From Tetrahymena thermophila SB210 (taxonomy: Eukaryota; Ciliophora; Oligohymenophorea; Hymenostomatida; Tetrahymenidae), in contig NW_002476399.1 in the NCBI RefSeq assembly GCF_000189635.1, forward strand, positions 284,415 to 348,414: a stretch of DNA of 64,000 nt. Direction: 5' to 3'. Under the pieces are notes generated by a model. It did not search any database. It worked only from the letters and a program-made list of their open reading frames with translations, and was not told the DNA's origin. A program made the translations under genes and the position numbers. This document shows, piece by piece, positions 10,917 through 64,000 of the stretch. Each line of letters opens with the position of its first letter. The first letter of the stretch is position 1.

Positions 10917-12659
10917 ATGCAGGATAGTTAGAAATAAGATTTCTTGTAAAATAAGGCTAAAATTGAAGAAGCAATAGATTCAATTTTGAAAAAGACCTAT
11001 GATGAAAAAACTAAAGGATCTAGAGAATGCAAGTAAATCCTAGATTAACTTTATGAAATTCAGCCTCTTTTAAAAACTGTAGACGATTCTATAAAAGATG
11101 TAAACCAAGATAAATTACAATAGCTGTATAAAACTTTTAGAAATCTATTTAAGTCATTCAAAGAGGATGTATCAGAAACTTCAAAAATGATAAACGATAA
11201 CACATTTGATAAAGATAATAAGATAAACAAAGAGAAAATGAAATAAGTCATAGAACGAATTAAAAATATGAAATAAGAACTAGAAAATTTAAAAAATAAA
11301 ATATTTGTCCCTTACAAAAAGTATTTAGTTTGGATAGACTATAATATTGAAAATGATGAAAGTTTGTTATATTTAATTGAATTTATCAATATTTGCAATG
11401 GTGCTATTGAAATTCATATTTTCGATAATAATGAGGATTTTAGAAATTTTGTTGTAGAACACTCAGATTAAATGCTTTATATTATTATGAGCGGGTCGGC
11501 AGCTGGTGAGTCTTTCGAATGGGATGGAAAAAACTTAAAATGGATCAAATAGCTAATTTAGTAGAAGTCTTCAAGTGAGTTTATTTATGGAATATATATA
11601 TTTACTTCTTATGAAGGAGAAAAGTACTTTAAGCCTTTAATAAAATCAGAAAAAGGATTGGTTTTGGATGTCACTAGTAATCCAAAAATCATATCTGAAA
11701 ATCTAAGAAATTTAATTTTTCCAAAGAAATGCATAAGGGTATTACCAGTAGTCAAGCTATGTGAATTTCTTGATAAAGAGCTTATGGAGTAATTTCTTTT
11801 ATTAGCAAAACAGGATTACTCTAAAATATAACTTATTGACTATCATCCAGATAAACCCTATCAAATCTAATAAAAATTTAAGCTTTCTGAATTATAAATT
11901 AACAAATTTTAAAACAAAAGTTTAAAATAAAGATTAGAAATCGCTTTTAAAATTATAGAAGATTAAAAGATTGGTATTGACTAAAATATCTTAAATAATA
12001 ATATATATTAATCTCTATTTGAATGCTTTAGAAGTTAAGATAATAGTCAAATAGCAGAAAGTATATTAAAGCTTTATACTTAAGAAACTAACTTCTACAA
12101 GTTCATAAATTCTTTGTTAAGTGTATTGAATCAAGACTTAATAATAATTTTTTGGGATCTTATTTTATGCTTTAGAGCAGCTCTAAATGTTTATGATGAT
12201 TCTAAATTTTCTCAAATTTAACCCCCTAAAATGATTAGTAAAAAATTACATTTTTATAACATTTTAACTGATTTATTATTTTAAAAATATTCAGATAATT
12301 AATATGAAGAAAGAAAAGCAGCTACTCTTTATAGAGGAGTAGCTATACCAAAGGAGAGTTTTGAGTAGCTTTATAAGGTTGATTAATATATCTGTATGTG
12401 TGGATTTTCTTCTTTTAGTACTGATCTTAATATAGCTTTAAAATTTTCTTAGAAAGGCTAAGGAATAAGAGTTATTTTTAAAGTAGACTATGAATGTGGT
12501 AATTAACAGTATCCTTTGAGACCAAAATGCTTAAGTGAACTGTCAGAATATGATGAAAAAGAATATCTAATGAATTGTGGAACTGTTTTTAGGATTAAAT
12601 CCATTTAAGAAGAAATTGAAGATAATAATGTTATTAAATATATTAATCTAATTTTGTGA
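10917..12659 (+). CDS. ADP-ribosyltransferase-like protein, short form (ART copy 3)
   Basis: Two exons, 10917-12237 and 12295-12659 (intron 57 nt), 561 residues; both exon lengths are identical to those of ART copy 2 (1321 and 365 nt). Central motif reads MSGSAAGESFEWDG, where copies 1 and 2 have Lys in place of the second Ser, a change in an otherwise fixed loop. Catalytic-like residues are kept: LYRG, GFSSFST and DEKEYLMNCGTVFRI. The frame is intact throughout, and exon-length conservation despite many substitutions argues that selection still holds it. It probably works as a soluble protein-modifying enzyme, as inferred for its siblings. Confidence 0.8.
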
Positions 12660-28650: not shown

Positions 28651-30521
28651 AATTTATAAAAGTAAAAATAATCCAAAATTAATGATTGAATATAAAAAAA
28701 AATACTACTTAATATAGTATTTAAAAACTCTTAATTAATATTGATAATATCATATTTAATATTTTTAGCTTTACTTGAATCAATCAATCTTTAAAATAGA
28801 TGTATGTAGTAAGATTAGATATTTGCATTTTACCACTTCGAATTATTTTCTTTAAAATTTTGTATCTATTTTAGCTACTAAAAGAGTACAATGAATTTAT
28901 TTGTCAATGTAGTAAAGATTAGCTAATAAAAGATATGATATAAAAAAGCAATAAAATGATACATCATTATTATCATAAAAACTAAATATTTTTTGATTTT
29001 ATTTTTGGTATTTTTTTAATGAAAGAATTAAATATTACTTAATTAGTATTTTTGATGAATAAACAATTGGAAGGAAGAGTCAATATATTTTGCACGTCAA
29101 AAACAATTGTGGAATAATTAATTATAATCAGTACGTCATTGAAAATTAAAAACAAAAAACTTATTAAGCTTTTATTAATTGCTTATTATATTTTGTTTTT
29201 AAAATATATTAATTTTGAAGCATAACTAATATTCTCGTTTAATATATATTACTTGAAAAAAAGTAGAAAATATCAAGGTTCTATTTAGTTGTTTTAATAT
29301 ATAACATAATTTTAGTTATTTATTCTATTTTTACCTATAAATAAATGTTTTTAAATGATACGTATTTAAATTTAGTTTTATTTTGAGAATTATAACAGTA
29401 TTAATTATCCTGCTAGATTGCGTATTATAATTTAATTAAATGATGAGTTAAATATTCATGGTTTTAAAGATATTTAAAGATAGTATGATCTTATGAAATA
29501 AGGAAACAAGTGTTAAATTTTTAAGTTTTAACAATAAAATTCTAGAATATTTATAGAGTTTTAAAACAGATAACAGGAATAAAGAGAAAGAAAATAACTA
29601 TTTAATTTCTATTTTTAGTATTTACAAATAAAATTTTAAAAATAAAAAAATTTTAAAGAATTTAATAAATTATTAATAAAATGTTTGTTTTTTAACTTAC
29701 TCTATTAGTTTTATTATGATAAAATTCAATTATTTTTTAGAATTGTATTTAGTTTTTCAAGAAACCATGTAGAAGCTTTTATAAAATATAAATACTAAAA
29801 ATTGTTTTGTATGATTTATCAACTGATAGTTAGAGAATGGGTTTGTTATAAAAAAAAAATAATTAAATTTAAGACTTCTACCAGAATTTAAAAAATAAAA
29901 ATCAAATAAATTTTAATTCATTTAGAAAAATAAATTGTGTAATTTAAAAAATTTTAGGTGACAAAAAGATTTTAAAAATATCAAAAATAATGACTTAATA
30001 ATTTAGAATTATTAGAAAGTATGTATTTTAATTAATACTAAAGTAATTATACTAACACTTATTGAATAGACTGAAATTTATATTTATTTCACAAAATCTA
30101 TCTTTGTTTTTCAAAGGAACTGCTTGCTATTTTCAATACCGTTTTTTATTTTACAATATTTTTTGTTGAATTTTTTATTTTGATTTTGTTTAAGAAAAAA
30201 TTTAGTTTCATGAATTAACTAACATTTTTGGCTAGTTATTAATATTTATCCAACTTTTGATGATTTAGGAGAGAAAGGTATATATAAAGAAGGTTTTTTT
30301 GCAAGAATGCAAAAGTTAATAATAAGGAAATACTGGATATATAAAAAGAGTTATACAAATAGCAATTTAACAATGTTTAAAATTAGTATTAGTTTATTTA
30401 TATCACTAAAAACAAAATGATTTATTTATTATTTATTTCGTCATTAGCGCAGTTTTTATAAGAAAGAAGATTTTTCATGTTAACTACTCAATGTATTTGT
30501 TATTAATTTTTAATTAGCAGT
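28651..30521. other. Long AT-rich intergenic region
   Basis: About 1.9 kb between a plus-strand and a minus-strand gene (both 3' ends face it). I looked in all frames and saw no sustained coding-like translation, no telomere-like or tandem repeats and no tRNA signature. It should hold the two 3' ends. Confidence 0.5.
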
Positions 30522-32308
30522 TCAATGCTTGAATTAGTTTTCAGTAGAGTCTTTGGAGGAGGCTAAGGTTTGAGATTCGGGTTGAACAAGGGCTTGGCAA
30601 GCATCAACGTAGTTAGCACCAGACCATCTATTTAATACAAATTAATTTTAATAAATGAATGAGTAAATAAAATTAGCAATTTATTATAGAGGTGTATAAA
30701 TAAAATATTCTTTTTATTTTTTAATAGATCGAATGAATGCTTTTGTTTGTTCTATTGCTTTTTTTGATATATTAAACATTGATAAATTGCTATTAAAAGA
30801 TCATATGATTGTCTATCTCTATTATTTGAATATTTTATTTATACCTACTTATCAGAGCCATTTTTTTTTATTTTATATAGATAAAAATGTTTTTATAATT
30901 ACTTTTGGTGGGTGAGTTGGTCGACTTTGTGCTTTTCTTCCTTTCTTTGGACAGTTTCGACGTAGGCGAGCATACCACGGGCAGCAAGATCCTTAGAGAG
31001 CTTTTCAGACTTGAGAGCATTCAAGTGGAAACCAGCTAAAGTAATGAATTACCAGGTGTATCCGAGTCTACCAAGGTCAGCACAGAAAGATTGGATTTGA
31101 GCATTGGACATGTTGAAAGCAGACCAGTTGAAAGAGGGGGAAAGGTTGTAAGCCAATAATTTGGTGGGATGGTTATTCTTTACCAAGGTAGAGAACTTAG
31201 TAGCAACTTCCAAAGAGGGAGTAGGAGTTTCCATCCAAACCATATCAGCATATCTTAAATATTACTTAGCACGAGCAGCACATAATTCAACACAACCGTC
31301 AATGGAGTAGAAACCTTCAGATGAACGGAGAGCTTCCCAGTCGAATTGGAAGTCAAAACCGAGAGTTCTAGCGTATTCGTGGGCTTGAGTGAGGGAAAGA
31401 TCGTAACACTTAGAGAGCCAGAGCTTGGTGACTTCTTGGACCTTAGCACCAGTGAACTTAGCCTTGATAGCTTCAAGACCTGCATTAGGGAAAGTTCTTT
31501 CCTTACCATCAGGGCAAAGACCAAGGATGAAGGGGTGGTCAACGGGGTCACAGTTGGAGTCAATAAGTCTAGCAGATAAAGCATCAGTTCTGGCGAGGAT
31601 AATTAAATCAGTTCCCATAATATCAGCTTGGAGTCTGCAAGCAATTAATCTGTTGACGTGTTCGCGAGTGGAGACAACGACCTTACCACTCATGTGACCA
31701 CATTTCTTGGTACCAGGTCTTTAATCTTCAAGATGGATACCAGCAGCACCAGCTTCAATGAATAACTTAATTAACTTCATGGTTGAAGTAATACCACCGA
31801 AACCAGCATCAGCATCAGCAATCATAGGAGCAAGGTAGTCAACTCTGGGAGTCTTAGCTCTTTATTCAGGGGTCAAATGAGCTCTTTGTTCATTTTGGAT
31901 TCTGTCTTGTAAAAGTTAAGCCTTGAAGAGTTGGTCAACTTTGTTGGGGACAGTGTTGGCAGGGTAATCAGCAAAATCTGGACCAGGTTCATTAGTAGTG
32001 GAGGCAGTGGCAGAGCATTACCATCCAGAGACGTAGACAGTTCTCAAGTACTTGGATAAGTTGATAACTTGAACGGGGTCTAAGGCACCGAAAGTGTGGT
32101 GGAATCCCTTGTTGGCTTGGGCTTCCTTCAAGAGTTTCCACATCTTCTTGGATTAGTAGTTGGAGGGGTAGTCCATGGGGATGGTGGGTCTTAAACGGGC
32201 AACATCTTAAGCTTAGTAGGGTCTTTCAACATTTTCCCAACGAGAGTTAGTCCACCATTTTTGGATTTCAGCAGTGATTTCTTAGAGTCTCTTTCCTTCA
32301 ACGTCCAT
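30522..32308 (-). CDS. ICL1: Isocitrate lyase
   Basis: Splits isocitrate into glyoxylate and succinate, the entry step of the glyoxylate cycle, in peroxisomes in ciliates. Two exons: 32308-30903 and 30627-30522, with a 275-nt intron; 503 residues. The catalytic loop KKCGHMSGK is complete, with Cys203; other family signatures are YVSGWQCSATAST near the N-terminus, [15 protein letters not shown] and LIILARTDA, and the last exon starts inside the HQKWSGA motif, which confirms the splice. Codon use is strikingly GC-richer than the neighbours (GCC, CCC, CTC, ACC), as in highly expressed ciliate genes. The C-terminus does not end in an SKL-type peroxisome signal, so import, if it occurs, uses another route. 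Length fits the eukaryotic family. Confidence 0.95.
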
Positions 32309-32419
32309 TTTAGTTTGTTTGATTTGCTATGAGTTATTAATTTGTTTACTTATTCTTTTTAAAAAGATTGAAAATCTTCTTTCTTTCTTGCTTTTTAATT
32401 TTTTTAAATTATTTGTTTT

Positions 32420-35400
32420 TTAATTAAATATTACGTTTATAGGATGGGCGCTCCCAAAAACATATAAATCAACGTATCTTTCCTTCATTCTACTTAATAA
32501 ATAAAATACGCAATTATTTAAAATTAATACAAAAAGCTTTGCTCTTAGATTTTTGATGACTTTAAATTCATGATTTACCAAATTTGTAACATCAATACTT
32601 AACCAACTCATCATATGAGATACTAATTGTTGAAGAATGCACCTTTTCACATCTGTTAGAAGTGGCTAGGACGAATATCTCATGTTAAGAAGGAGTAGGA
32701 TAAAGGAGCTTAATATTCATTCATTAATTAGACACTGCTTTCTTTCTACTTGATTAAATTAGTAAAATACAAGAAAGGCATTTAATTCAGTAAATATAAT
32801 TGTGTATGATATACATAATTGATAAAACAAGGTAGTTATCTTCCAATAAAATTATAAAATCAAATTTGCAATGACTGATTGTCATCATCATCAAAAATCA
32901 CTAGAAAACGCTTTTCAGGCTTTGAAGTTTTCACTTTAGTTTGATTAATTAATAATATCTATTATTATACTGCGTCACAAAAAATTTATCAAGCCAACGC
33001 TTATTACGCAAGATAGGCAATTAAAATTAAATGAACCTAAAAAGGGATTCAAAACCTAACAAACGAATCAATATTCTGCTTTTTTATTTGAGTGCTAACC
33101 AAAATTATCAGCAATCAATTGAGCAATCTAATTTAATTTGAAATTGATCAAGCAACCAAAGCCCTATATTAAGTAAATATCTTACGTCTTTCAATCATCT
33201 TTCCATTGATTGCGTCTTTATATTTAATCTTATTTACGTAAGTAACTAATTACTATTAAACAAAGGCTCTAAGTAAATGTGGGTACCCCTCTTCTTCTCT
33301 TAGCTTTCTTACTTCATTTGGCATATCTATGCTGCTACAACTTATTTTATCTGTCATTAAAATTAGCAACTAGCTATGCTATCTAAGAAGTATATAAATG
33401 TATGCAGATGATTTATGAAATCTGAGAGTGTATTTTGTTTCCCTTTAACCATTTAGGACTTCAATTACATCTTTTGAATTGAGAATAATTCTATTAGGAA
33501 ATGCATGAAATTTCAAATGCTATTTCAGATATAAAAAATCAGATGATATATTGTCCTCAACTTGCCTGTCATTTGATATATGTTTTATTACTAAAATATT
33601 TCTTAAATATCATCAAAGCATCAATTGAAGTCAAAGCTAATTTATGATTCATTTTAAAATAACTGCAATAATATAAATAAAAAACACTCTGCAAATTATT
33701 TGATAGTCAACTAAGATAGAAATTTAATAGTTAACAATAATAATATAAAGTGCTAATAAACAATATCTTTTTTAAATTTTTTATAAAAGGTTAGAAATAT
33801 CTAATTTATTTTTGTTTCCTTAAATTTGATAAAACACATTTTGCTCTAAATACATCTAAATGAATAAATATATTAAGCATAGCTGCTATCCATGTATAAT
33901 TTCCAAATAGCGATGAAAGAGTTTTAAAATAACAAATTATGAAAGAAACAGGCATGTACTTTTTAAAAATTATTCATATTTTTATAAAAATCATAAAGCA
34001 AAAAGAACTACTAAATATTTTCAAAGAAGATTATGTCTGCAATAAAATTATTTCTTAATGTGTAACTTAATAAATATTTGAAATTAGATAATAGTCTAAC
34101 AGCAACAGTTTAAACAACTAAATTCATACTGCAATCACTATAAATACATTTTATATTTAAAATTTAAGTTAAATTTCTAATTAAAAAATAAAAATATCAA
34201 TTTTAGAGAAGATGATCAAGTACACTTTATTATTCCATGTTTATAAAATATCTTAAGATGTTTAAAAATGTTAAATTTTATATATTTTCTTCTATTCCTT
34301 AGCAATAAATACAAAATTATGCAAAATAACTGCTTGGATCATTTAAAGACCTAGAACACCTAAATTGATGACAAAATACAGTTGTGTTTCATCTATTATT
34401 TTCAATAAAATTTGTATTTTCGAAATATTTTAAAGATTATTTGAGAAAATACCATTTTATAAATACGAAATCTGTAATTCTACTAAATTTACAAAATAAT
34501 TACACAAGTCAAAAATATAAAATAAGAAAATTTATTCGGTCTTTTCAACTCCATTTGCTTTTATAGCTTGCATTTTAGTTTGTAAAAACTCATTCTAATA
34601 AAATAATAGTGTTTCCCTTTGACTACTTGATAGCAACAGCTAGATATTTAGAGTTTACAAATGATTGTGTAAATTATATATTAAGCATTATTAACAAAGT
34701 ATAAATTGTTAAAACAATCAAAAATAAAATGAGGGATTATAAGTAAGATCTTGAATCTTTTAACCAAAACAATACTTGAGTAAACATCCTTACTATATTA
34801 AATATAAATAAGTATGCAGACAAGCTAGCAAAAAAATGGAATATGAATATTTATGAGGATCAACTTTCATTTTTAAATCTATTTTTAATACTATTGATCA
34901 AATTTAAAAGTAATTTACAAGAGGAATTATAAAAAGAAATACGCACCAAAATCACGAATTTTGGATAATTATCATCTATTTTAATACCAAAAATAGAATC
35001 AGATACATGATAATCTTTCGCTTATTTGATTTGATTAAGAGTGAAAAACGATTTAATATTTTCATTCAGCTTTTATCAAAATCTACTTTAATGTAATTTT
35101 TCATCTTGGCAAAAGCTTTCTTACATTCTTGAGATTTTTTTTACTCGAAAAAAATATGCAACATTTTCTTTATCCTAAACTATTTTTTGAAACCCAACAT
35201 TGTTAAAATGGTGGAAATTTTCACTTTCATGTTCGTTTTAAAACACTGAATTGATTTTAAAAAAGTCTAACAATATCAAGTAAAATTTAAAATATGACAC
35301 AATTATATCATATCTTAAAATCTATTACGACAAAAGCTAGTTAGTCATAGGTGTCGTCATCTCAATTAATACCCAAACTAATAATTGAATATAAAATATA

Positions 35401-37136: not shown

Positions 37137-40100
37137 TCATCCTCTAAATGTTTTTTCAAAGTCTTGATTAGTTAAAGGACAAATTGTTAATGATTAACCG
37201 TTGCTAACACATTTTTAGTCTGCAACAACAGCATTTGGATAAACACATACTGTTTTATCACCTATTGATTTATGACAAATAGCACATTTCTTTTCTTCTG
37301 ATATTCTTACATATGCCTTTTTTGCATTGGTTAAATTATACTTTACATTTTACAAATCCATTTCACTTAAATTTTTAGCACAGCTTACTTATCTTCTATT
37401 GTGAAGAGAAGAAGAAATAGTTTAAGTTAAGAAACTGTATAATCCATCATTTGCTGTGAAACTTTCACCAGAACTTTGGCTGGTAAATTCTTAAAGCACC
37501 CAGTCATCAGGAATCCTCTTTAATACTTCTAGAGTATCTAATTATGGGTGAGTGCTATACTTTTTCAAAAATATATTAATTCTGTTCAGCCATGTCTAAT
37601 GGAAATTAGTAAATTCTTCTCTCTTAGTGATATCAACCTTATCTTTGTTTAATAGCAAATCTTTAGCTGATAAATAGATATCCATATAAATATGGAACAT
37701 AGTTGTTAAAGTCATATCATTATTTTATAAGCAATAGTTTTCAGCTTCTGAGTGGCTATTCAAATCAACAATCAACTTCCTCAAAGCTTCTATATGTTTC
37801 TTGCTCTATTCAATAAAAATATATATTTTAATTCAAAAAATATTTTTATTACAGAAAATAGTTTTTTTAATTTGTTTTTTCTTTCTTTTTTTGATTCAAC
37901 ACATATTTATTACTTAAGAAATTAAATTTAAGAAAAAATTAAAGCTGAAAAATTATTTATTTATTTATCTTTATTAATTAAAAAATGAATTACCTTTCCA
38001 CAAAAGTAAATTTCTTCTTAAATCAACCAACTGTTTTGTACTTTTTCAAGAAGGAAAGAAGGTTCATAGTTTGAATTAGGGTCAGTGTAAAAAGCTTTAA
38101 ATTTTTCGTATATTTTTTTTCCACTTTCTGTTAACCTTGCAGCTTCGAATTTTGTATCTTTAGGAATTATATTAAACAAATTGTTAATATAAATTATAGC
38201 CAATTTGTTGTGGAAACGACTTTCTGCAACTTTTTTTTAAGTGATAATAATTTCCAAATAAATTTCTGCTAGTTTATCTGCTAGACTATATTCATTAGGT
38301 TAATATATTCCGTCGCTGATTAAATTAAGCATTTATTCTGGAGGCATCACACTTTCCTTAACATCTTTAAAGAATTATCTAGCAAAATCATAATTTTTTT
38401 TAATAACCCAAGGTAAGTATTCTATAATTCTCTTGCTATTTTTATATATTCAAATATTATAGTAAATAAATAATTTTTTTAGTTTTTTTTTACCTGTCTT
38501 CTTATTCAAGAAGAATTCTTATTGTTTCTTTACATGGAGTTTCATATTTTGATTACATTTAAGAACCTATAATTTTCCATCTTTCTAAAGCATCTTTGAT
38601 TCTATCAAACTTTTCATAGAAAAAGGCTATAATTTAAGGGTCTTTCTAATCTATTTAATCAGCTAATAAAGCCTTATGAATTTCATCATAATAATACTTG
38701 CAGTTAATAGGTTCTTTTCCTCTAAATAGATCACAAAGCTTTTTGGAATACTCTTTTCTCTTTAAACAAACTTTAATCAAAGCAAAATCTATCAATTTTT
38801 ATAACTCTGAAAGCTCTAAGTCCTTTTCTTGTCTAACCAAAGTATACTATGAAATATTATAAGTCATTTTCTGGTTTGCAAATTATTTGTATTGAGGCTT
38901 ACTATATTTTATTCTCATTCTTTCTAATATATTGACCAGCATTTCATAAGCTTCTCTCTCCATAAATTCCTTCACTTATTGATCCTTAATGTAAATAAAA
39001 ATATAGTTTACAATCTTTGAAACAAAAACTCTTTTATTAATTAATTAATATAATTTTTTTTCAGAGTTTTCAGAAGCTAATTAAAAACTTTATGATTTAA
39101 TTCATAGTTATTTTTTTAATTCAAAAGTGAATGAATAAAGTATTACTTATTATCTTCCTATGATAACTTATATGTTTTTAAGGTTGTCAAAAGTAATTTT
39201 GCCCAACATATCAGTTGGAATCAAATCTCTAAACAAAGCTAAAAGCTCTCTAATATCAAAATCTCTGATATAGGTCATAGAATCTCTATTTTCAAATCTA
39301 GCTGAGGCTTCTCTAAACTTTCCAACTTACAAAAGATTCCAAGCAGCATCAATATTGAAAGCTTCCTCTTTATCTTTGTAAGAAGGATTGTCCTTTGTTA
39401 CTGACTGGGAGAAAATAGCCATCGCTTCTTCAATTTTACAAGATTTAAAGCATTCATTAATTCTAGTCTCAAAAGGAATTTCTTCTAACATAACTAACTT
39501 TTGTTGAGTGGCATAAATAATATTTCCCTAAGAAGCTATGATTCTTTTAGCAGGTCCTAATTAAATTTCTGTTTCTTACATTTTTTTGGAATCTTGCATA
39601 TTAAATATTTAAAAGCAATTCTCATACAATATAATCAAGTATGGCTTCTATACTTAGATCTACACAATAGGCCTTACCAAAGGTTCAAATGTTGCTCTAG
39701 GTTTTAAATTGCAATCTCTCTATTAATATTAATAAAAAAGTCCATTTTGTATTTCAATATATTTGTCTTTAATAATTTCTATAAATTAACAAATTTTAAA
39801 ATAAAACAGTTGATTGGCAAGCAGATTATTTCAATTAATAAGCTAATTCATGTTTAATTTGGGTAAGGAGATATTTTTTGTGATAGGAATGTGCTTAATA
39901 AACGATTTCATTTTTTTCTATTAATTTTTAATAATAATTTTCTTTGTACTTTAGATTTCATGAATGCTAAAAAAACAAATTTTTCATTGAATCAAAATAA
40001 TTAATAAACATAATTCATCTATTTTAATAATATGCTATTTTATTCTGAAATGCTTTTTTCTTTTCTAAAATCCTGATATATAAAAAATATTATATTATCT

Positions 40101-44197: not shown

Positions 44198-45839
44198 TCA
44201 ATATTAATCTTTATTTCTGATGTTTTAATTAGAAATAAATTAATTAAACATTTGCAAAGCTAGAGCAGGTTGATCTACTGTAACCATGTGCCCTGATTGA
44301 TTTACTGTAAGGAATGAAAACTTACCAGCACTTTTAAATTAACCTCCAACTTTTCCATCTACAAGATAGTCTTAGAATTCTGCGTTTTAAAAATCTTTTT
44401 ACATACTCCAATTCATGTTTTCAGCCCATTAAAGCCCTCCGCTGTAAATATTAAATAAAAAGATTAAAAAATATTTAGAAAATAAATTTTTTTTACATAT
44501 AGTTGCATATAAAATCTAAGTCACCATAGTAAACTAGTACCTTAATTCCACTTTCTAAAACAAAAGCAACATCTTAAGCATAGCTTAAGTCATAGTCATA
44601 TTCAAGAGCATCATATACTGGATCAGATTCTATTTACCAGTTTCTTCCTGAGACTCCTAAAGCAGCCTAAACATCTGCTCTATTAAAATAATCAGATAAG
44701 CCATTGAAAGCACTTTCGCAATCAGGTCCAGTACATTTGACGTTGTAAACATCAAACTTAGGATTCTCTTCGTTACCTACTATATCATACATACCTCTCA
44801 TGCAAATAGGCTTAAAAATTTTATAAGGTGCTTTTTTAGCAATTAATTTAGAACAATTAGATAAGGTAGGCTTTGCAACTAAATTGTATTCATAAGAACT
44901 AATCAAGTTATTTTTGAAAGCAAATTCACCATAAGAAGGGTACTAAATTTAAGGATCTACCTATTAATAAAAAATATTATTAAAAAAACCTTTTAAAATT
45001 TAATTGTATCATAATAAAAACTAAAAAATACTCTTTAATTTTACTACTGTAGTATCTCAATACTAATGTTTATTTTAATATTTACAATTTTATTAATTTT
45101 TTTATAATTTATTAAATTATTATCAAACTTAAAAAAATTTTTAATCATACCAAATTATAGGTAATAAAGTAAACTTTATTGTATTAAATATTAAATTTTG
45201 CTAATTTAGGTAAATTTTAGCTTAAATAATTAAAGTGTAAATTTGATAAACCATTAAAATAAAAAAAATATTTACCCAACCATTACCAATAGCAAGACCT
45301 TATAAGTTAATTTTTGGGTCTTTCTTCTTAATTAAACTTGCACCTATAGCAGGAACAAAATGGCCTGCATATGATACACCAGTAAGGTAAAGTGGTCTTC
45401 CAATATACTAGGGATTTTATTCAAAAAAGCCTAAAAGGAATTAGTAAAAATCTTCTTCAACTTCACTCTCGCTTTTAGTTAATTCACCATTTCCAGCATT
45501 TGAAAAACCAGTTCCAACAGGCTAGTCCACAAAGACCATATTAGCTTAATTATTCCAAGCATATATGTTTGTTTCTAAAGTTTAATCTTACTAATTCAAT
45601 CTGTAAGGACCATTACCAGCAAGAACTGAGATCATAGATGAGGCACCAGGACCTCCAGCTAACCAGAAAGCTATAGGATCCTCAGAGGGATTACTTCTTG
45701 ATTCAAAATGCCAGTAAAAGATATCACTTGATTTTTTGATAGTAATGAGACCAGTGGTATAGGTTTCATTTAAAAATAAAGGATTTTATGTACCTAAAAC
45801 ACAACTTAAAGCGAGTAAAATCAGTATTGTTTATTTCAT
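44198..45839 (-). CDS. Serine carboxypeptidase (peptidase family S10)
   Basis: Removes C-terminal residues from peptides; lysosomal/vacuolar or secreted. Three exons: 45839-45276, 44960-44497, 44441-44198, introns 315 and 55 nt, 423 residues. Signal peptide at residues 1-16 (MKQTILILLALSCVLG). Family marks: FWLAGGPGASSM (usual WLNGGPGCSS), DQPVGTGFS, nucleophile Ser156 in GVSYAGHF, the acid in YYGDLDFICNYIGG (334-336), and His394 in QSGHMVTVDQP. The triad is complete. Odd: the residue before the nucleophile is Val, where the family almost always has Glu (GESYAGH) that helps bind the substrate carboxylate; the oxyanion-side loop also has Ala for Asn and Cys. Specificity or pH range may therefore differ. 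Both introns are well placed against the family pattern. Confidence 0.9.
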
Positions 45840-48352
45840 TTTAAGTAATTATTAAATCAAATCTTTAATATATTATTTCCTAATGAATTAATTTATGCCC
45901 TTTCGTATTTTAATATTATTTATTAATAAATTAAGTATTTAATGTATGTACATTTTCTTTTACTAAATCTATAAAAGATTTATTACTAATAAAGGATTTT
46001 TTTCTCAAATTTAATAATTATCTTCGAAAAGAAATCTGTTAAATCTTTTTTATCATCAAAAGCTAGATCAAAGCAGTAAAGTTATAAATATTAATAAAGA
46101 TCTTATCAAATCTTATGAAATAGAAAAATTAATTTATCTAATTAATGAAAGAATATTAAATACAAATTTGACTTATCTAATAAGAAAATAGCCAAACCAA
46201 TTAGCATCTTTCAATTATATTCATTATTTAATATTAATATCAAATTGGAAATGTAATTTGAATTAAATATTTCTATTTTTATAAACCAAAATATATTCTT
46301 TTTTACAAAAGCCAGTTTAATAAAAAATTTTTGTTAAATGAAAATGCAATTATTTTTAATCATTATGGTCTGTGTTTTTGCATTTATTTTATATTTTTTT
46401 TATTTTGTTTTTAAAAATATTTACATTTTTCTCCTTTTCGTTTAAGGGAAATTGTATGAAAAATATTAAAGAATTACATATATTTATCTAAATTAACTAA
46501 AATAGTATAAATAAATTTTATATCCTGTGTTTTAGATTTAAAAAATAATGTACTATTCATTTAAAACCTTTTAAAAAGTAAGTTCATTCTTGAAATTGAA
46601 ATTTTAGTATGAATAAAATTCAAAAATTGAATTTTATTTTATCTTACTATATTTTTTAATTATTTAAAAATTTCTTTAATTTTGTATTTATATTTCTGTT
46701 TTAAAAAAAGTTCTACTATAAATTTTATAATAATTTTAATAAAAATTAATTATTCTTTGTATATGAATCTGATTTTTATGAATTAACATCAAATTAAAAG
46801 TTAATTAGATAACAATTAAAGAAATTAATTTTTTTAAATTATATTAATAGATTTTGTATGTTTAAGTAGCTAACACATTTATTTTAAATAAGAATTAAAT
46901 TAATTCTTCTCAGTTTAACTTTTTTTAATTTTTGGCTAAATAACAATTAATAATGTAGTATAGATAAAAGTTTTCTAAATAATTTTATTTTTTGTTTCAA
47001 GAAAGAGTCAATCTTAGGATTTTTAATTATGTGAAAATATATTTTTTCAATTTTACTCAATATAAAATATATTTGAAAATTTTTTATCTTGACTCGAGTT
47101 TAATGGATTAGATTGTCTAGAAATTTATGAATATAAATACTTGTAATAAAAAATGGCATATAATCTTATGAACCTTAATTTAAGAAATTAATTATTTAAT
47201 TTTAGCTTATCAAATATTTTTTTCCTTCCAAAAAATGAAATTTGGTTTATAGGCAGGTCACGAGACTAGCTAAAACTCTTGTAAATTCCCTATAATTTCT
47301 AAAATAATAAGAGTTCCTGAAACCACTACATCATTAAAATTTGATTATTAGTATACTTATATAAAAATAAACAAACATATTATATGATGTATATGCAATA
47401 AGTAATACTTTTATTACTATTAATCGAATACATCTTTTTTATAACTTCCACACCAAAAATTTATTCATAAAATTTACCATTTAAAAAATATTTGAAAACA
47501 TTTAATATTTTTAGAATTTTTTTTATTTTTAATTGACCAATCAATGAAATTCCAAAATATTTAAATTTAAAAATATAACGATTAAATAATTTTAATAATT
47601 TAATACAATTAAAAAATTATAATAAATTAATCAAATTTAATAATTCTATCTCAAAAACTATTCCATTTCACCCAAATATTATAATAGATAATTACATAAT
47701 TAAAGAAGTAAATATAGGATATGGTCAAACATAATTTGATTAAAATAAAAAACCAAAATAAAATAAAATAAAATAATTTTGAAATAAATGTAAATATGTA
47801 TTAATATTTAAATAATTTAACATTTTTCTTTAAATTTGCTTGAAAATTTTTTAGCATATTATTTATTATCCATAATTTATAGTATGTATAAAATAAGATA
47901 TTTGTTTATTTTGTAAGTAATTATAATAAAATTACAATAATTCTAAAAAATTACACAATCTCTTTAAATTTTTAAAGATATGAGATAATTAAAATATAAA
48001 AAGAATGATTCTTATCTAAAAAACATGAATGATTAATCTAGATAATAAATCAAAAATTAATTCATTTACTATGTTAATTTTTATGATTCCAAGTAATGCA
48101 GTCCACAATATAAAAATATGAGATAATTAAACCCAAAAAAGAAAAGGATACTTATATATTAATAATTCTGATGAAATATAATATAATTATATACAAAAAT
48201 ATAAAAATTATTCAATTAGTTAAATAATTATATAACAAAATACCGGATAATAATAATCCATAAGTTAATTTTTAAAATCTGAAGGTTTTTAATTTATTTT
48301 TTTATTATTTTTTTAGTAGATATTAAATCTAAAGTCTTCAAAATCTGTGAGT
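45840..48352. other. Long divergent intergenic region
   Basis: About 2.5 kb between two genes pointing away from each other, so both promoters lie here. Very AT-rich. A short GC-richer patch near 47245-47335 (TAGGCAGGTCACGAGACTAG) stands out and might be a small RNA or a decayed exon; otherwise nothing seen. Confidence 0.45.
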
Positions 48353-50605: not shown

Positions 50606-51134
50606 TATTTATTATATTTGTAAATGTTTTGTAGAAGTATAAAAATTGCTTTATTATTTTTATATCAATCTTTCAAATACATACTAATATAAATATAAAT
50701 AAGTTGAAATAGAAAAACTATTTATTTATGGTGAATAAAATTTTTTTTCTTTCTCAAAATATATTTAAAAAATTAATAAAAAATTTACCAAAAATAGAAT
50801 TTTTTTACAAATAAAAAATTGTAAATTTATATATGTTTGTTAAAATTCTGTTAATTAAAAATATGAATGAATATGCTTTCTGTAAATAATTTATATTAAA
50901 AAATAAATTTATAAATTTTTTAACATTATTTTTTTTAATTGTATTAAGCAAAAAATAGTGAATTGAAAAACAATTTAAACTAGATATTTTATAATTAATA
51001 ATTATAATTATTGAAATTATTATAAAATAGTAATAATAGCTTATTATTTATTTGTTTAAAATGTATTATAAGATAAAAATACCTTATTAAATGTTATTTG
51101 TTTTAAAGAAAAATTAGAGTGTAAATGTTATTTT
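50606..51134. other. Spacer
   Basis: The first ~120 bases are the 3' flank shared with the two downstream paralogues. The remainder resembles 57830-58120, the flank upstream of the gene at 58413, so it too belongs to the duplicated unit. Confidence 0.5.
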
Positions 51135-52510
51135 CATATTACTTAGCAATAGAAACCTATGATTAATAATAGACACTCTTAACTAATTTTTAATTAATTA
51201 AGACATTAACTAATTAGCCCAGTTTATCTAATAACTAATTAGAATATATAAAACACTTTTATTTTTTATTAATAAAACAATCATTAATCAAATAAATAAT
51301 GGGAAAATATTTGATTAAATTTTTTAAGATATAAAATAATTAATCAATACAGAAAAAATTTTAGTAAGTTATTCATTAAAAAATAATTAAATACTTAAAA
51401 AAAATTCCTAAAATATAAAAATTCATGCTACCACAAATATATTAAAAGAAGTGCTCTTATCATGCGAATAATTATCATATTACTTAGCAATAGAAACCTA
51501 TGATTATAATTGACACTTTTAACTAATTTTTAATTAATTAAGACCTTAATTAATTAGCCCAGTTAATCTAATAACTAATTAGAATATTAAAAATTGAGAT
51601 AAAAACACTTTTATTTTTTATTAATAAAATAATCATTAATCAAATAAATAATGGGAAAATATTTGATTAAATATTAGTCAATACAGTATAAATTTGAGTA
51701 AATTTATCATTAAAAAATAATTAAATACTTAAAAGAAATTCCTAAAATATAATAAACTCTAGCTACCACAAATGTATTAAAAGATGTGCTCTTATCATGC
51801 GAATAATTATCATATTACTAAGCAATATAAACCTATGATTATAATAGACACTTTTAACTAATTTATAATTAATTAAGACCTTAACTAATTAACCCAGTTT
51901 ATCTAATAACTAATTAGAATATTAAAAAGTGAGATAAAAACACTTTTATTTTTTATAAATAAAATAATCATTAGACAAATAAATAATGGGAAAATATTTG
52001 ATTAAATTTTTTGAGATATAAAATAAATAGTCTAAACAGTTTAATTTTTGTAAATTATTCATTAAAAATAATTAAATACTTAAAAGAAATTCCTAAAATA
52101 TAAAAACTCATGCTACCACAAATATATTAAAAGAAGTGCTCTTATCATGCGAATAATTATCATATTGCTAATCAATAGAAACCTATGATTATAATTTACA
52201 CTTTTAACTAATTTTTAATTAATTAAGACCATAAATAATTAACCCAGTTTATCTAATAACTAATTAGAATATTAAAAAGTGAGATAAAAATACTTTTATT
52301 TTTTATTAATAAAATAATCATTAGTCAAATAAATAATGGGAAAATATTTGATTAAATTTTTTGAGATATAAAATAAATAGTCTAAACAGTTTAATTTTTG
52401 TAAATTATTCATTAAAAATAATTAAATACTTAAAAGAAATTCCTAAAATATAAAAACTCATGCTACCACAAATATATTAAAAGAAGTGCTCTTATCATGC
52501 GAATAATTAT
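51135..52510. repeat. Four-unit tandem array of a gene's 5' end
   Basis: Units at 51135-51475, 51476-51810, 51811-52160 and 52161-52510 (341, 335, 350, 350 bp). Each starts with CATATTACTTAGCAATAGAA and ends with GTGCTCTTATCATGCGAATA, the latter being codons of the zinc-binding N-terminus of the gene at 52460. So what has been amplified is the promoter region plus the first ~17 codons. Units 1, 3 and 4 keep an ATG at the equivalent place; unit 2 has TAG there. A single related copy lies upstream of the gene at 58413. Confidence 0.85.
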
Positions 52511-54082
52511 TTAACATATTTGCAAATAGGTTAAAAAAAGCAAAATTAAATTGGAGCTTGCTATGAATGTATCACATCTAATGATTTGTCAGGTGAAAAT
52601 TTGATACTAATAAAAGATATTTTAAATATATCCCAAGATAACCCTATTTCAAAGAAATATCCTTTTTTATAGGATAAAAAACTTGTAAGTAATATATTAA
52701 GTGAGTACATTTCATAGGAATATAAAGACCCGTTAAAAGAGACACTAACTTTTTTGGGATAATTAAAGGATAAGGTTATAAATTCAATTGTAAATATCGA
52801 AAAATCTATTCAATAAAATCCCTAATAATATTTTGTTAACAAAGAAGACCTTCTCAATTCCTATTAAGAAATCTCTTAAAAGGGTAAATTTTTAGATTTC
52901 TTTAAAGATTATATACTTGAATCTGGCGATTAAGGGTAATAATTATCATAATTTTTGTTTGAGTTAAATAAAAATTAACAAGAAAATACTCAAATCTTAT
53001 AATCTAAATTAGAAAATTTCCAAAAAACTCAAGTGTTTATAAAGTAATAATAATCATTTTAGCTAAGATTTTAAGATATCACATTGAGTATTATCGACAT
53101 CATTGGAAAAATATTATCTTTTGATAATAAGAAAGATTGTTTTTACTAGTAAGTAGAGAATAATTTGTAAACCATTAACAACCAACTTGAAACATTCAAA
53201 TAACTTTTTTTACCTTCCAATTAAATTATAGTTGATAACTAAAAAAAGGAAACAATTCATTAATTCATAAACTAAAATAAAAAAGATATCTCTTATGAAT
53301 TGCTAAAGTTAACTAAAATTATTTATAATTAAGAAATAAAACTAAATGAAAGCCAAAAAGAACATGTGGTATATTATGAATAAAAAATAAAATAAATTTA
53401 AGAAAATCTTACAAAATTTGAAAGGAATCTTTACTAGATAACCAGTTGGTACATATTTTAAATATCGAATAAATTTCACATTTCAAACAACTTAATTTAT
53501 AATTATAACAAACATCAATAATTTACTCGTATTACTCCAAATTCCTTCTAAATAACACATCTTGCTCAAAATAATGATATACTAATCAGATGTATAAACT
53601 AATATAATTTTTCAGAAATATCTCACTAACACAGTATAAAGGCTAATTAATTATATAAAATTTAATTAGAATTTAAGCCATTTTAGAATTAAGAATCTCA
53701 ATATACATTCTGTATTGGACTAAAATAGTACAATTTACAACAAAAATAATACAATTCTCTCCAATAAGCGCAATCTTACTTTTTTTCTAATACTGCAGTT
53801 CAAGGTAGACTTAACACAAGAGTCAAGTAAGGTGTACACATCTTTAATTAAAATATCTCTGATAGTGTATAGATGAGAAAATTAGAAGTCATATTCTGCT
53901 TGTAAAACAAGTCATTTACTTTACTTGACTTCCCAAGAAGAGAGAATATTATTATTGCAGAAGACCAAAGATTAGAAAAAATAGATTTAAATTAAAAATA
54001 TTACTTTTTCATGGCAATTAAAGGAATATAAGAAATCAATATAATGTAGTTTTTACAGTGTCCATAAAATTAATAAATTTGA
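52460..54082 (+). CDS. Zinc-binding coiled-coil protein, family B copy 1
   Basis: Single exon, 540 residues, TGA stop. N-terminal metal site of C-x2-H ... C-x2-C type (KKCSYH, then GACYEC), like one half of a B-box or small zinc knuckle. Residues ~60-330 are Gln/Lys-rich and helical (coiled coil), e.g. FQKTQVFIKQQQSFQLRF. The C-terminal ~170 residues form a compact beta-rich domain with PFQNQESQYTFCIGL and RKLEVIFCL. The overall plan recalls TRIM-like proteins without a RING, but the C-terminal fold is not one I can name. The start ATG is in the last unit of the tandem array; the sibling at 58413 starts six bases later at ATGTAT, which here reads ATATAT. Confidence 0.75.
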
Positions 54083-55617: not shown

Positions 55618-57210
55618 ATGAGTGAAAAAGTATAATAAAACAAATAATTTGAAAAAAAATGCGAAATTCATGAAGGCTAAGATATTATCTATATACAAAC
55701 GGGTGACTAGAAATAAAAATAAATAGGAGTATGCGTAGAGTGTATAACAGCTAATGGACTATAAGGATAGAATTTGATGACATTAAATTCAATTCTTAAT
55801 GATATGAAAAATGAAAACTCAATATCTTAAAGTTACCCTCATTTTAAAGGTAATGATATTCTTAAGAAATATTCAGCATCTTACAATTCATTAGGATACT
55901 TGGATCCATCAAAATAAATCGAAGAATATAATGAAATATTTGCTAATTCTTTATAATTTATCAAAAATGCTTTGAAGTAAAAGCAAGATACGCATTTTGT
56001 TGACAAAATTGGTCTTATTAATTCATATAACAAAGTTGCTTAAAAAGGTGAATTTCTAACTAACTTTAATGATTATATGAGTGATACAAATGACAAAGGT
56101 TAAAAATTCAAAGTATTTTTAAATGAATTAAATCAGAAATCAGAAAGTAATGTGTAATTTTTGACAGAAAAATTAAGATAATTTGAAAAGACTCAAACAC
56201 TTTTATCAAAATTATAACCAATTAAAGAACAGCTTCAAAAAATCAGTCATAATATTGTAGATTTTATTAAAAAAATAATAACATTTGATGAGAATAATGA
56301 TTCATTTTACAAGTAGATTGAAAATAATTTGATAGGAATAAATTAATAATTTGAGTATAATAATTCATTATTTTAACCTCAGAATTCAGTCATGAATTAT
56401 CAAGCTTCAATAAAAATATCATTTTAACAATTCATGTATTAAGACTGTTAATTATAACAGTTTGAATCAATATAATTATTCCAAAAGATGCTAAGTTTAA
56501 AAAATTAACTAGATTTTAACCTAAAATAAAATTCAAACTAAAATAAAATCTCTCAAATCTAAACTTTAATTGAATAATTTAATATAGAAAATACGAGAGC
56601 TGTTGACAATTATTTTTTGGACTTATCAAAAAACATTTATATTTCAAATAATCTTGATATTGATTATAATTAACTGGGTAAATTTGTTTAATTTAGATAT
56701 AATACAGCATTAATTAATAAAATTCATCCTAATAATAATTATATTATAAAGTATTAAAATCAAAATAACTTTATAGAAATATTTAACACTTTAAAAATCG
56801 ATAATTAGTAACACTATCGAGTTTAGTTAGAGATCAAACCCTTTTTACAATCTGAAAATTAATATACTTTTGAAGTTGCAATTTAAAATTTTCCTAATAA
56901 TTATCAAAGAAATTAGAGGTTTGTTTTATCAAGCAAACATTATTTAAACGCTTAAAGCATATAACTTGATTAAGGCATTACAATATAAAATTAAGGAATA
57001 CCTTGCCGCCAATAAATGCGAAAATTAGAAATTCAATTCTGCCTTAAAAATAAACAATTCACTCTAAGTGATCTTCCAAACAGATAATATGTCATAGATA
57101 ATAAACTAGAAAGCATTGATTTAACCAAAGAGTTTTATTTCTTTATAAATACCCAACAAGTTGATGAAATAAATATCATAGAATTTAAATAATTAAAACA
57201 AATTCGTTGA
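55618..57210 (+). CDS. Zinc-binding coiled-coil protein, family B copy 2 (divergent)
   Basis: Single exon, 530 residues. The metal site is Cys15-x2-His18 ... Cys39-x2-Cys42 (KKCEIH, VCVECI). A coiled coil of about 250 residues follows, then the C-terminal beta-rich domain (KPFLQSENQYTFEV, RKLEIQFCLKNKQFTLSDLP). It aligns end to end with the genes at 52460 and 58413 but at clearly lower identity, and its 5' and 3' flanks are unrelated to theirs. It is the oldest or a transplanted member: the flanking inverted repeat and the hairpin at 57498 occur only around this copy. Likely a cytosolic scaffold; no enzyme motif seen. Confidence 0.75.
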
Positions 57211-57618: not shown

Positions 57619-58412
57619 CAGATATACCTGAGATTTTATTTTTAAAAAAAATGCCTTTTAATTTTTTAAGAAAAATTAATTTTTTATTATTTTCTAAAAA
57701 AGATATTCCTCGCCCATTCCCCTCGCCATAATAAATAGGTTTTACGGTATAATAACAGTAAATTTAGAAAAATATTGTAATTAAATTAATTGATTTTTTT
57801 ATTTTATTTTGTTTAGAGCATTTAAGTTTTATCAAAATAGAATTTGTTTTAGTAATAAAATATTGTATATTTGTTTATATTTGTTTTAAATTCTGTTAAT
57901 TAAACATATAGATGAATATTTTTCCTATAATTCATCTTTAAAAGTAAATTTATAAATGTTTTAATATAATTTTTTTTTAATTGAATTAAGCAAATAATAG
58001 TGCATTGAAGAACTGACAAAACATGATATTTTATAATTATTGAAATATTATCAAATAGTAATATTAAATATTATTTAATATAATTTATTTTAAAGAAAAA
58101 TCAGAGTAAAATCTTTTTTCATATTTTTTAACAATAGAAACCTATGATTATAATAGACAATTTTAATTAATTTTCTCTTTGCCCTATTTATTTATTTAAT
58201 AATTAATTAATTAGAAGAAAATATTTAATTGAGATAAAAGACTTTTATTTTTTATTAATAAAAAAGTCATTAATCAAATAAATCATGAGAAAATATTTGA
58301 TTTAATTCTGTGAGGTATAAAAGGAAGAGTGAATAAAGTATAAATTATTAATTAAAAAATAATTAAATACTTAAAAGAAAATCTTAAAATGTAAAACCTC
58401 ATACAACCTTAA

Positions 58413-60023
58413 ATGTATTAAAAGAAGTGCTCTTATCATAATGATAAAGATATTGAATATTTGCAAATAGGCTCACAAAAGCAGCGTTAAATTGGAGCTT
58501 GCTAAAAATGTATCGTATCTAATGATTTGTCAGGTGAAAATTTGATACTGATTAGCGATATTTTAAATATGTAATCTATAGATAACCCTATTTCAAAGAA
58601 GTATCCTATTTTAAAAGATAAAAAGCTTCTCAGTAATTTATATAATGAGTACATTTCATAGTAATATAATAATCCATTATAACAAGCAAAAACATTTTTG
58701 GAAGAATTAAAGAATAAGGTTATAAATTCTATTCAAAGTATTGAAAAATATATTCAATAAAATTCCTAATAACATTTTTTTGACAAGATCGACCTTCTAA
58801 AATCCTATAATCAAATTTCTTAAAAGGGTAAATTTTTATCTCTCTTTAAAGATTATATGTCTGACTCTACGAATTAAGGTTTAGAGTTATCATAATTTTT
58901 GTTAGAGTTATATCAAAAGAAACAAGAAAATACTCAATTCTTATAATCTAAATTAGAAAGCTTCCAAAAAACTCAAGGGTTTATAAAGTAATAATAATCA
59001 TTTTAGCTAAGATTTTAAGATATCACATCGAGTATTATTGACATCATTGGAAAAATATTAACTTTTGATAATAAGAAAGATTGTTTTTATTAGCAAGTAG
59101 AAAATAATCTGTAAACCATTAACAACCAACTTGAAACATTCAAATAACTTTTTTTACCTTCCAACTAAATTAAAGGTGAAGATGATTTAAAAAAGGAAAC
59201 AATTCATTAATTCATACACTAAAATAAAAAAGATATCTCTTATGAATTGCTAAAGTTAACCAAAACTATTTATATTTAAGAAATAAAACTAAATGAAAGC
59301 CAAAAAGAACATGTGAATGAATAAAAAATAAAATAAATTTAAGAAAATATTCAAGTATTTAACAAAAATCTTTATCATATAGTAAATTAATACAGTTTTG
59401 ATATATCGAATAAATTTCACATTTCAAACAACTTAGTTTTTGATTATAATAAGGTATACTAATTTACCCCTCTTACTCCAAATTCCTTCTAAATAATAAA
59501 TGTTGCTCCAAATAATACTATACTAATCAAATGTATAAACTAATAGAATTATTCAGAAATCTATCACTATAAAAGCATAAAGGCTAATTAATTATATAAA
59601 ATTTAATTAGAATTTAAGCCATTTTAGAATCAAGAATCTCAATATACATTTTGTATTGGACTAAAATAACTCAATACATAACAACAATAACACAATTCTC
59701 TCCAACAAGCATAATCTTACTTTTTTTCAAATACTGCAGTTGAAGGTAGACTTAACACAAGAGTCAAGTAAGGTGTACACATCTTTGATTAAAAGATCTC
59801 TGATAGTGCATAGATGAGAAAATTAGAAGTCATATTCTGCTTGAAATATAAGTAATTTACTTTACTTGACTTACCAAAAAGAGAGAATATTATTATTGCA
59901 GAAGACCAAAGATTAGAAAAAATAGATTTAAATTAAAGGTATTACTTTTTCATGAAAATGCAAGGAATATAAGAAATCAATATGATATAATTTTAACAGT
60001 GTCCATAAATTAAATAAATTTGA
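58413..60023 (+). CDS. Zinc-binding coiled-coil protein, family B copy 3
   Basis: Single exon, 536 residues. Metal site C-x2-H ... C-x2-C (KKCSYH, GACQKC), coiled coil with FQKTQGFIKQQQSFQLRF, and the beta-rich end with KPFQNQESQYTFCIGL. Most of it is nearly identical to the gene at 52460, and the match extends into both flanks, so the two come from a recent duplication of a block of about 2.5 kb. Differences are mostly single-residue, with a few codon indels, and the frame is kept, which suggests both are still used. Start chosen at ATGTATTAAAAG, directly before the first Cys. Confidence 0.8.
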
Positions 60024-60628: not shown

Positions 60629-63492
60629 TCATAGTTTTAGTTTAAGCTTAACTAATCTGACTACTTTTAAGGTTTTGTATTATAATTTTTTCATGCAATT
60701 TTTTCCAATAATATTGTTGCTTTTAAAACAGAAAAAGTTTTTAATTAAAAAATAATTTTAGAAGTTGGTATTTCAAATAATTTGAAACAAGTAAAATAAT
60801 CTTACTTTAAAGAGAGCGATAAAGTTTTTAGTTTGAAACACTTTTATAAGTGTGAACACAGTTACAAAGCTCCTTCTTCTTAAATTTTATTATTGCTTTA
60901 AATTTGAAAGAAATTAATTAGATAATATAAAGTAAAGATTTATTTAAAAATACATTTTAAATTAAATTTATAAATTTTAAATAAAAATAAATTTCACCTT
61001 AAATAGATTTTTAAATTTTTCATATTCTGACATTTATCTAATCCTATGCATAAATCAGAAATTGCTTAATCTTAAATAAAATTGTATCTTTTTGAATAAA
61101 AATATATTTAAAAGAAAATTAAGTTAATAATTAAAATAAAATCAATAAATTTTATTTAAATTTATTGCAATAAAACAAATAATTTTAATTCTTTTTTTAT
61201 ATAATTTTTTATTTATTAAATCAATTAAAATATTTAAATAGAAAAAAACCTGAGATCTAGTAAAAAACTTGAAAGATATTGACACTTTGAAAATCCTTAT
61301 GCTAAATCTGTTATCCCTTTATGAGTAATATTATTAACTCTTTAAATAATAGATTTATGTTATTATATAATTTAAGCTAAAAAACGAAATAAGTTCAAAA
61401 AAATTGAAATAACTAGTTAGATAGTTATCCTATGAAAATATTACATAAAATTTAGTAAAATAATATTAAGAATGTATTGTGAAGAAACAAAATTTACCTT
61501 AAATATAACTTGATAGTTTAAAGATTTAAGCATTTAGCTATTCCTTTTCCTAAATTTGAGACTCCATCATTCTATAAATCTGCATAACTAATTATTTAAT
61601 TTATATTAATATTATTAAAAAAGTAAAATTTTATTTTTTTATAAATAAATGAATAATTTTGTTTGTGAAAAAATTTTGTCCAAACAAGCAAAATTTAAAT
61701 AAATAAATTGAATTTTTAAATAATAAAAAGTTAATGAACTTCAAATATGAAAAAAACGTTACTAGATTAACCTAGTTTTAAAAAAATAATGAGTAAATAA
61801 TAAATTGATAAATACTTGAGATTTATGATTAAAGATATAAGTTAAGTATGTTATGCCAATCGAGAACCTAAGTTATATGAGCTTTGATCAATTAATTAAA
61901 AGTTTCTTTAAATTTATAAAATTAAAATATAATCAATATAGAAAAAAAAATATATTAAATAATATTAGTTTTTTAATAAAATAATATAAATTTTAAATTA
62001 AATTATTCATTTTATATTTTCTTCACTTAAAAAATATTCAATTATAAAAATTAATTCAATTTACTTAATGTCTAAAGTTAAGCTTTCAAGTCTAGAGTTA
62101 TTTTTAAATCCAAAATCTTACTCTAAATTATTTTATACTGTTTTTTCATCTAAACTTTATTGATAAAGATATTAAGAATATAATTCTCTCAATAATAATT
62201 AATTATCTCCTAAAATTATATAATTATCGAATTAGAGAAATGGCAAAAACTGTAAATCCTCATATATTAGCACCTAAAAGATACAAAATAACTACATTTT
62301 TAAATAAATTTTGGAACCTACCAAAAACAGGTTAAAAATTAATGGTCGTGGCGTGTGTGTATATGATGATTTACAGTATATACATTAGTAAAATAATAAA
62401 GTTAAAAAAATAAATAAATTTAAAACAGATTTACCTTAATTAAAGAGTTAAACTTGTTAAACTATAGCTCTAAGTTAATCCATAATCCAATACAAATAAA
62501 CCTCTAGAGCTTATTTAATTTTCTCTATTAAAATTTAAATATTTAACATTTAATTGAAAATACAAAATAACAAAATTATGAGGAAATGTAAAATAAAAAA
62601 TAATAACAACTTTATACAGGAGAAATAATTAATTAATTAATTAATTATTTAAACTGTAATTTATTTAAGTAATTTAAATGCTGTTTAGTATATTTTTTGT
62701 GCTAATTTAAATTTTCTTAAACATATTTTCTTAGCTAATTTAAATATCAAAATATATTAAATTAATTTACTGTATTTCTACTGCTAAAGTTGAGAGATTG
62801 CTTAATTTTGATAAATGGCTACTTAAATACTGAACTCCTGTGTCAGTTATTTAATTTTAGCTTTCAAAATAAATTATGAAAATAAGATAATTAATTTAAG
62901 TAAATATTTAAATTAAAAAGTCATGTATAATTTAACAAGTTATCTAAGTCAAAAAATATTTATGTTTGAATGATTGATGTTTAACTCTTTTCAATAAAAT
63001 AATATAAAATTATTTCATTAATCAATTAGCAAATTACCTTAAGCAAATCCTTAAATTTTCCAGATTTAAGCATTTTTGAAATGTACAACTTAAATTTTTC
63101 AACTCTAAATCATCAATATTTTAAGCTCTTTTATTAAAAAGATAAAAAATTTTTTTCAAACTTTCAAAAAAAAGATTATCTCATTATTTGGAAAAAGCAT
63201 AATAGTAAAATTGAAAATATTAAATTTTTGCTTTTGAAATATAAAAGCTATTTAAAAGATCAAATAAACTTTAAAATAATTAAAAAAATAAATGAAGATA
63301 ATTTGTTTTTTACCTAAGTTTGATATATAATTTATAATGATCTTCTAAGTTTGAGTTTAAAAACTTTTTAAATAAAATAAATAAATTTTATAATAATTAA
63401 TTTAAAGTTTTTATTTTTACTTTTTTTAGTTCTTTGTATTTTTAAATTTATTTAAATTAAGTTTTTTTTTAAGGAAAGCTAAATAAAATCAT
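60629..63492 (-). CDS. Leucine-rich-repeat protein with one-repeat exons
   Basis: Twelve exons on the minus strand: 63492-63421, 63363-63314, 63127-63038, 62860-62771, 62509-62435, 62154-62065, 61905-61816, 61587-61498, 61339-61250, 61087-60998, 60895-60806, 60719-60629. They sum to 1008 nt, 335 residues and a TGA stop. Eight of the nine internal repeat exons are exactly 90 nt (one is 75), all in the same phase, and each encodes one leucine-rich repeat, e.g. GVSNLGKGIAKCLNLQTIKL, GITDLAQGFSKCQYLSSFLL, ISDLCIGLDKCQNMKNLKIY. The last exon ends RLVKLKLKL. Ribonuclease-inhibitor-like repeats of this kind form a horseshoe for protein binding. No single exon is long enough to show up as an obvious frame, which hides the gene. 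Exon 1 (MILFSFPQKK) is the least certain part. Confidence 0.8.
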
Positions 63493-63972: not shown

Positions 63973-64000
63973 GGGGTTGGGGTTGGGGTTGGGGTTGGGG
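63973..64000 (+). repeat. Telomere repeats (GGGGTT)n
   Basis: 28 bases of uninterrupted GGGGTT, G-rich strand running 5' to 3' toward the end of the window, as expected at the right end of a Tetrahymena-type macronuclear chromosome. The array is cut off by the window or assembly, so its true length is not shown. Confidence 0.97.

Follow-up and report, generated by a model that had tools for sequence, protein, structure and literature searches.

Near the end of a Tetrahymena thermophila contig, the minus strand carries the model of a spliced leucine-rich repeat (LRR) gene whose frame stays open from its ATG to its TGA. It occupies 63492-60629 of the 64-kb stretch of DNA that we analysed (the window; C145:284415-348414 in an assembly of 445 contigs totalling 101.0 Mb). 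We are highly confident that this gene belongs to the Tetrahymena LRR family in which phase-2 exons of exactly 90 bp are set in arrays, and it seems to be one of the older members. Tandem exons of this kind were described, and the genes sorted by age, by Xiong et al. (PLoS Biol, 2019; PMC6564038). Because its 90-base exons are of a kind described in 2019 for a very large family, the gene is an ordinary one: its architecture has already been reported, and it is one more member of a described family.

Structure of the predicted gene

The model comprises 11 exons and ten introns and encodes 359 residues when TAA and TAG are read as glutamine and TGA as stop. The bounds are exactly those given in the initial annotation, and the spliced, open gene model is confirmed. 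Nine internal exons of exactly 90 nt lie between terminal exons of 179 nt (first) and 91 nt (last; Table 1). All ten introns are of phase 2, cutting the codon after its second base, and every exon after the first is read in this one phase. Each 90-nt exon encodes a single leucine-rich repeat of about 30 residues, and alignment of the nine repeats gives the majority consensus xNxIxxxGxxxLxxGLxKCxxLxxLxLxLx. The expectation that the internal exons would share a phase and hold one repeat each was thus borne out for nine of nine.

Table 1. Coordinates of the gene model, the telomere and related exon arrays (positions in the window)
Feature	Position	Strand	Remarks
Exon 1, 179 nt	63314..63492	-	ATG at 63492; donor GTAAAA; ends in phase 2; aligned with 14 segments upstream of paralogous arrays
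90-nt LRR exon 1 of 9	63038..63127	-	Phase 2
90-nt LRR exon 2 of 9	62771..62860	-	
90-nt LRR exon 3 of 9	62435..62524	-	Entry at an inner AG would start it at 62509 and shorten it to 75 nt
90-nt LRR exon 4 of 9	62065..62154	-	Most degenerate of the nine repeats (template score 6 of 9)
90-nt LRR exon 5 of 9	61816..61905	-	Donor GTATTT
90-nt LRR exon 6 of 9	61498..61587	-	
90-nt LRR exon 7 of 9	61250..61339	-	Donor GTTTTT
90-nt LRR exon 8 of 9	60998..61087	-	Donor GTGAAA
90-nt LRR exon 9 of 9	60806..60895	-	
Last exon, 91 nt	60629..60719	-	Ends in TGA; weakest part of the gene model
GGGGTT telomere	63973..64000	+	Window end is contig end (C145, 348414 bp)
Contigs with arrays of candidate 90-nt exons			C330, C128, C92, C288, C243, C22, C114, C400, C131, C355, C44

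The initial annotation had counted eight internal exons of 90 nt and one of 75 nt. The clock-like run of same-phase 90-nt exons stands, but the count is nine. Among the 75-nt candidates, 62509-62435 alone reads as an LRR in the right phase, and 62501-62427 overlaps it with a shift. The former is exon 62524-62435 entered at an inner AG, and it is most likely the 75-nt exon that had been counted. Since the repeat is complete, and in register with the other eight, solely in the 90-nt form, we take all nine exons to be 90 nt long. Similarly, eleven exons and ten introns give ten splice junctions, one fewer than had been predicted.

The introns measure 186, 177, 246, 280, 159, 228, 158, 162, 102, and 86 nt (mean 178 nt). 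Seven of the ten (63313-60720) have lengths divisible by three (one-sided P about 0.02, for one of several features checked). Introns of other arrays show no such bias (19 of 61 listed), and the excess is probably due to chance.

Because this sequence is so rich in A and T (about 84% AT) and is read with a single stop codon, we considered whether the pattern could be a chance or compositional artefact; indeed, the window holds 100 open frames of at least 150 aa by code 6. A scan for stretches of 90 open bases between an AG and a GT, in phase 2, scored on nine LRR template places with a template shaped in part by the gene's own exons, argues strongly against this explanation. At a score of at least 6, the gene chain contains nine exons, whereas 500 dinucleotide shuffles of the region reach a maximum of two (mean 0.14). 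With the stricter score of at least 7, the chain drops to five exons, because repeat 4 scores only 6, compared with a maximum of one in the shuffles. The rest of the window has only isolated 90-nt LRR candidates: two lie on the plus strand, and a single one lies below 60600 on the minus strand. Support that does not depend on the template comes from Pfam, where LRR_6 exceeds its cut-off with an E-value of 6.7e-8, and no other family does so, in a scan of 299 residues that excluded exon 1. A PDB sequence match (E 3.3e-6) to a chain labelled tubulin also aligns as LRR. The 359-codon frame is free of TGA against an expectation of 4.9 (P about 0.007), while the other two frames carry 4 and 8. Third-position GC is lower in the gene frame (0.172) than in the other frames (0.247 and 0.244). 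Given these results and the many similar arrays elsewhere in the same genome, we regard an artefact as extremely improbable.

For exon 1, a DNA search of the same genome found that 63470-63353 recurs with nearly identical ends at many places; these matches have 71-76% identity and lie in AT-rich sequence, where E-values are optimistic. We aligned 14 segments chosen from 13 loci, each upstream of and co-directional with an exon array, two of which (L021 and L022) match the neighbouring stretch 63413-63275 instead; L030 7485-7597, L032 6098-6217 and weaker matches on either strand were left out. In all 14 segments, the donor GT occupies one and the same alignment column. At the protein level, nine of 13 matches to the exon 1 peptide lie inside the chosen upstream segments (best E 2.4e-6). 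However, the reversed decoy of this peptide gave five matches with a best E of 2.1e-5. As the decoy nearly equals the true peptide, the case for exon 1 comes chiefly from the alignment of nucleotides and from its position. Matches between the introns and other loci were set aside, since many of them occur on both strands and have a compositional look. The peptide of the last exon had no match at E 0.01 among the examined loci of its own genome.

Family membership and age

Four features of the family can be recognized here. Where the family is marked by at least three consecutive 90-bp exons, the DNA-based model has nine; phase-2 introns precede the 90-bp exons, and the exons encode LRRs, as judged by LRR_6 and the nine-repeat alignment. 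A Tetrahymena host is indicated by the GGGGTT telomere, by TAA and TAG read as glutamine in open frames, and by ribosomal protein L3. The L3 of this genome is identical to PDB 4v8p chain BB, which we take to be from T. thermophila, at 190 of 190 and 176 of 177 residues in two pieces (366/367); the sole mismatch lies at an exon edge, on the residue where the alignment of the second piece begins. The window gene therefore has in common with the 90-bp-exon genes of groups II and III the tandem 90-bp exons, phase-2 introns, one LRR per exon and the ciliate code, and differs from them in sitting at a macronuclear end.

Arrays of this type are abundant. Among 38 other loci of the same genome, many of which were picked because they matched, 14 carry 3 to 16 candidate 90-nt phase-2 LRR exons on one strand, and the remaining 24 carry none to two. 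Some of these loci overlap, a single locus may hold more than one gene, and the count of 16 (L031) includes one artefact. A single typical repeat searched against the genome gave 6929 candidates at first look, a tally that is not a genome-wide count of arrays; 150 of the 150 scored matched at 86-100% identity. The best protein matches elsewhere in the genome (E down to 2.1e-18) are LRR stretches at C258:186510-187307, C57:45137-46021, and C54:83921-84421. These have the same protein-level repeat type as the window gene but, unlike it, continue through several repeats as a single open stretch that is not divided into 90-nt exons. Perhaps they correspond to group I of PMC6564038. LRR proteins of the LRR_6 or ribonuclease-inhibitor-like type likewise have repeats of about 30 residues; the window gene differs in its one repeat per exon.

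The published groups provide a scale on which to place the age of this copy. Group III, the youngest, has repeat units alike at the nucleotide level and introns near 257 nt in T. thermophila (232 in T. malaccensis), and its genes lie in pericentromeric or subtelomeric parts of the micronuclear genome, near REP retrotransposons. The older group II has 90-bp exons without nucleotide-level repeats and introns near 56 nt (PMC6564038). In the window gene, the nine exons have a mean pairwise identity of 48% (range 40-60%) and a longest common run of 14 nt. By comparison, ten young arrays in nine loci of the same genome have mean exon identities of 70-90% and longest common runs of 27-89 nt, and the median of their 61 introns is 257 nt, equal to the published value; together with L3, this median suggests that the genome is that of T. 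thermophila or a very close relative. The gene thus departs from group III in both exon identity (0.48 against 0.70-0.90, used as a proxy for the published consensus repeats) and mean intron length. An old-looking array at C288 (L035) has an exon identity of 41%, with eight of ten listed introns at 45-61 nt, and two loci at C114 (L021 and L022) have identities of 46-50%. Exon GC follows the same division (0.24 in the gene, 0.23 in the old array, and 0.32-0.36 in the young arrays). Exon divergence and GC therefore fit group II, whereas the introns, at 86-280 nt, are longer than in that group, and their mean falls between those of the two groups. By its sequence, the gene looks like a member of the older group with introns of middle length.

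One way to read this intermediate state is that the gene is mid-way in a proposed Tetrahymena intron-length cycle. It would then be a former young array with introns near 257 nt, whose exons have now diverged and whose introns are shrinking towards 56 nt; in addition, its start has a telomere added in development no more than 480 bp away, and could be affected if the sites of telomere addition are spread out among macronuclear copies. We consider this combined scenario speculative and rather unlikely.

Exchange between exons, decay and the chromosome end

It had been suggested that the repeat number of this gene could change by recombination or alternative splicing. The underlying logic is sound: exons of equal length and equal phase can be gained or lost with the frame kept, and just such shuffling, via unequal crossing-over and possibly also retrotransposition, has been proposed as the origin of the family (PMC6564038). 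The number of 90-bp exons per gene also ranges widely, from 1 to 51 in T. thermophila (PMC6564038), as would suit a live hotspot of recombination and alternative splicing in which repeat number varies between strains or transcripts. However, the divergence of these exons, so far below the identities and common runs of the young arrays, speaks against recombination of this kind in this particular gene. At 48% identity, exchange between its own exons looks unlikely today. The terms "alternative splic" and "exon skipping" are absent from the main text of PMC6564038, which means merely that the subject is undiscussed there; a literature search on alternative splicing of these genes gave a single listing, on sugar pine. 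Overall, a live hotspot appears very unlikely.

The position of the gene was thought to strengthen the case for recombination. Its distance of about 480 bp from the GGGGTT telomere is confirmed, but the added argument is weak because this end is macronuclear. The other end of contig C145 carries CCCCAA repeats, and the presence of telomeric repeats at both ends suggests that the contig is a whole macronuclear chromosome of 348 kb. In T. thermophila, cutting at breakage sequences turns the five chromosomes of the germline into about 225 macronuclear ones, to which telomeres are added anew (PMC7599177). On that account, a macronuclear end, being made in development at a germline breakage site, would usually be internal in the germline. 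Since heritable recombination is confined to the micronucleus (PMC6564038), the telomere would say little about recombination in the germline. The chromosome-breakage sequence is absent from the 64-kb window at up to two mismatches (chance expectation 0.57), as expected if the sequence is removed from the macronucleus.

The chromosome arm had been described as apparently empty, but a 544-aa open frame at 58389-60023 lies about 600 bp from the gene. It is one of three plus-strand frames near the chromosome end (52460-54082, 55618-57210, and 58389-60023), beside which lies a 350-bp tandem repeat in four copies (51130-52510). The first and third of these frames are 81-83% identical over two 300-nt stretches, and the middle one looks related by eye; 58389-60020 has no significant Pfam match. 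Further from the end, a direct duplication on the plus strand (5645-7873 and 10462-12659, spaced by about 4.8 kb) includes two 300-nt stretches that are 88% and 92% identical without gaps. The first duplicate consists of two overlapping frames, and the second is a single 580-aa frame with no significant Pfam family. On the minus strand, isocitrate lyase lies at 30488-32683 (PF00463, E 7.3e-172), where the GC content of the window is highest. The same strand encodes parts of two further proteins, a serine carboxypeptidase at 45126-45953 (PF00450, E 2.2e-59) and one bearing a Vps39 C-terminal zinc finger at 37140-37715 (PF10367, E 5.3e-9).

A further alternative is that the gene belongs to the same family but is a decaying pseudogene, its frame still open but a working product blocked by weak donors or by the degenerate fourth repeat. 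Non-GTAA donors follow three of the nine 90-nt exons (Table 1), compared with 15 of 120 candidate exons in other loci, some of them double-counted where loci overlap. Together with the degenerate repeat, these donors make decay possible. Because TGA is rare in AT-rich DNA, the open frame provides only modest evidence to the contrary. On the other hand, the exact length of 90 nt and the phase have been kept in all nine exons without a TGA, and the third-position composition looks coding. We therefore consider a pseudogene possible but unlikely.

Our preferred reading remains an apparently older member of the family. The model would be expressed and spliced to yield a 359-residue protein, for the most part a curved LRR solenoid, which most likely binds another protein or ligand. 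We infer that the gene arose by exon shuffling: its regular exons may be what is left of earlier tandem duplication of exon-intron units, and of exchange between them, in the germline nucleus, with the units of this copy having diverged since. The function of the family is itself hypothetical, with the sensing of bacteria or food having been suggested (PMC6564038). The same study covers ten Tetrahymena species, all except two of them with over 1,000 LRR genes. To a family known across these ten species the present gene adds a single member, and it raises no new question. It does illustrate that exon rhythm can lead a reader to a spliced gene in raw, AT-rich DNA of a ciliate.
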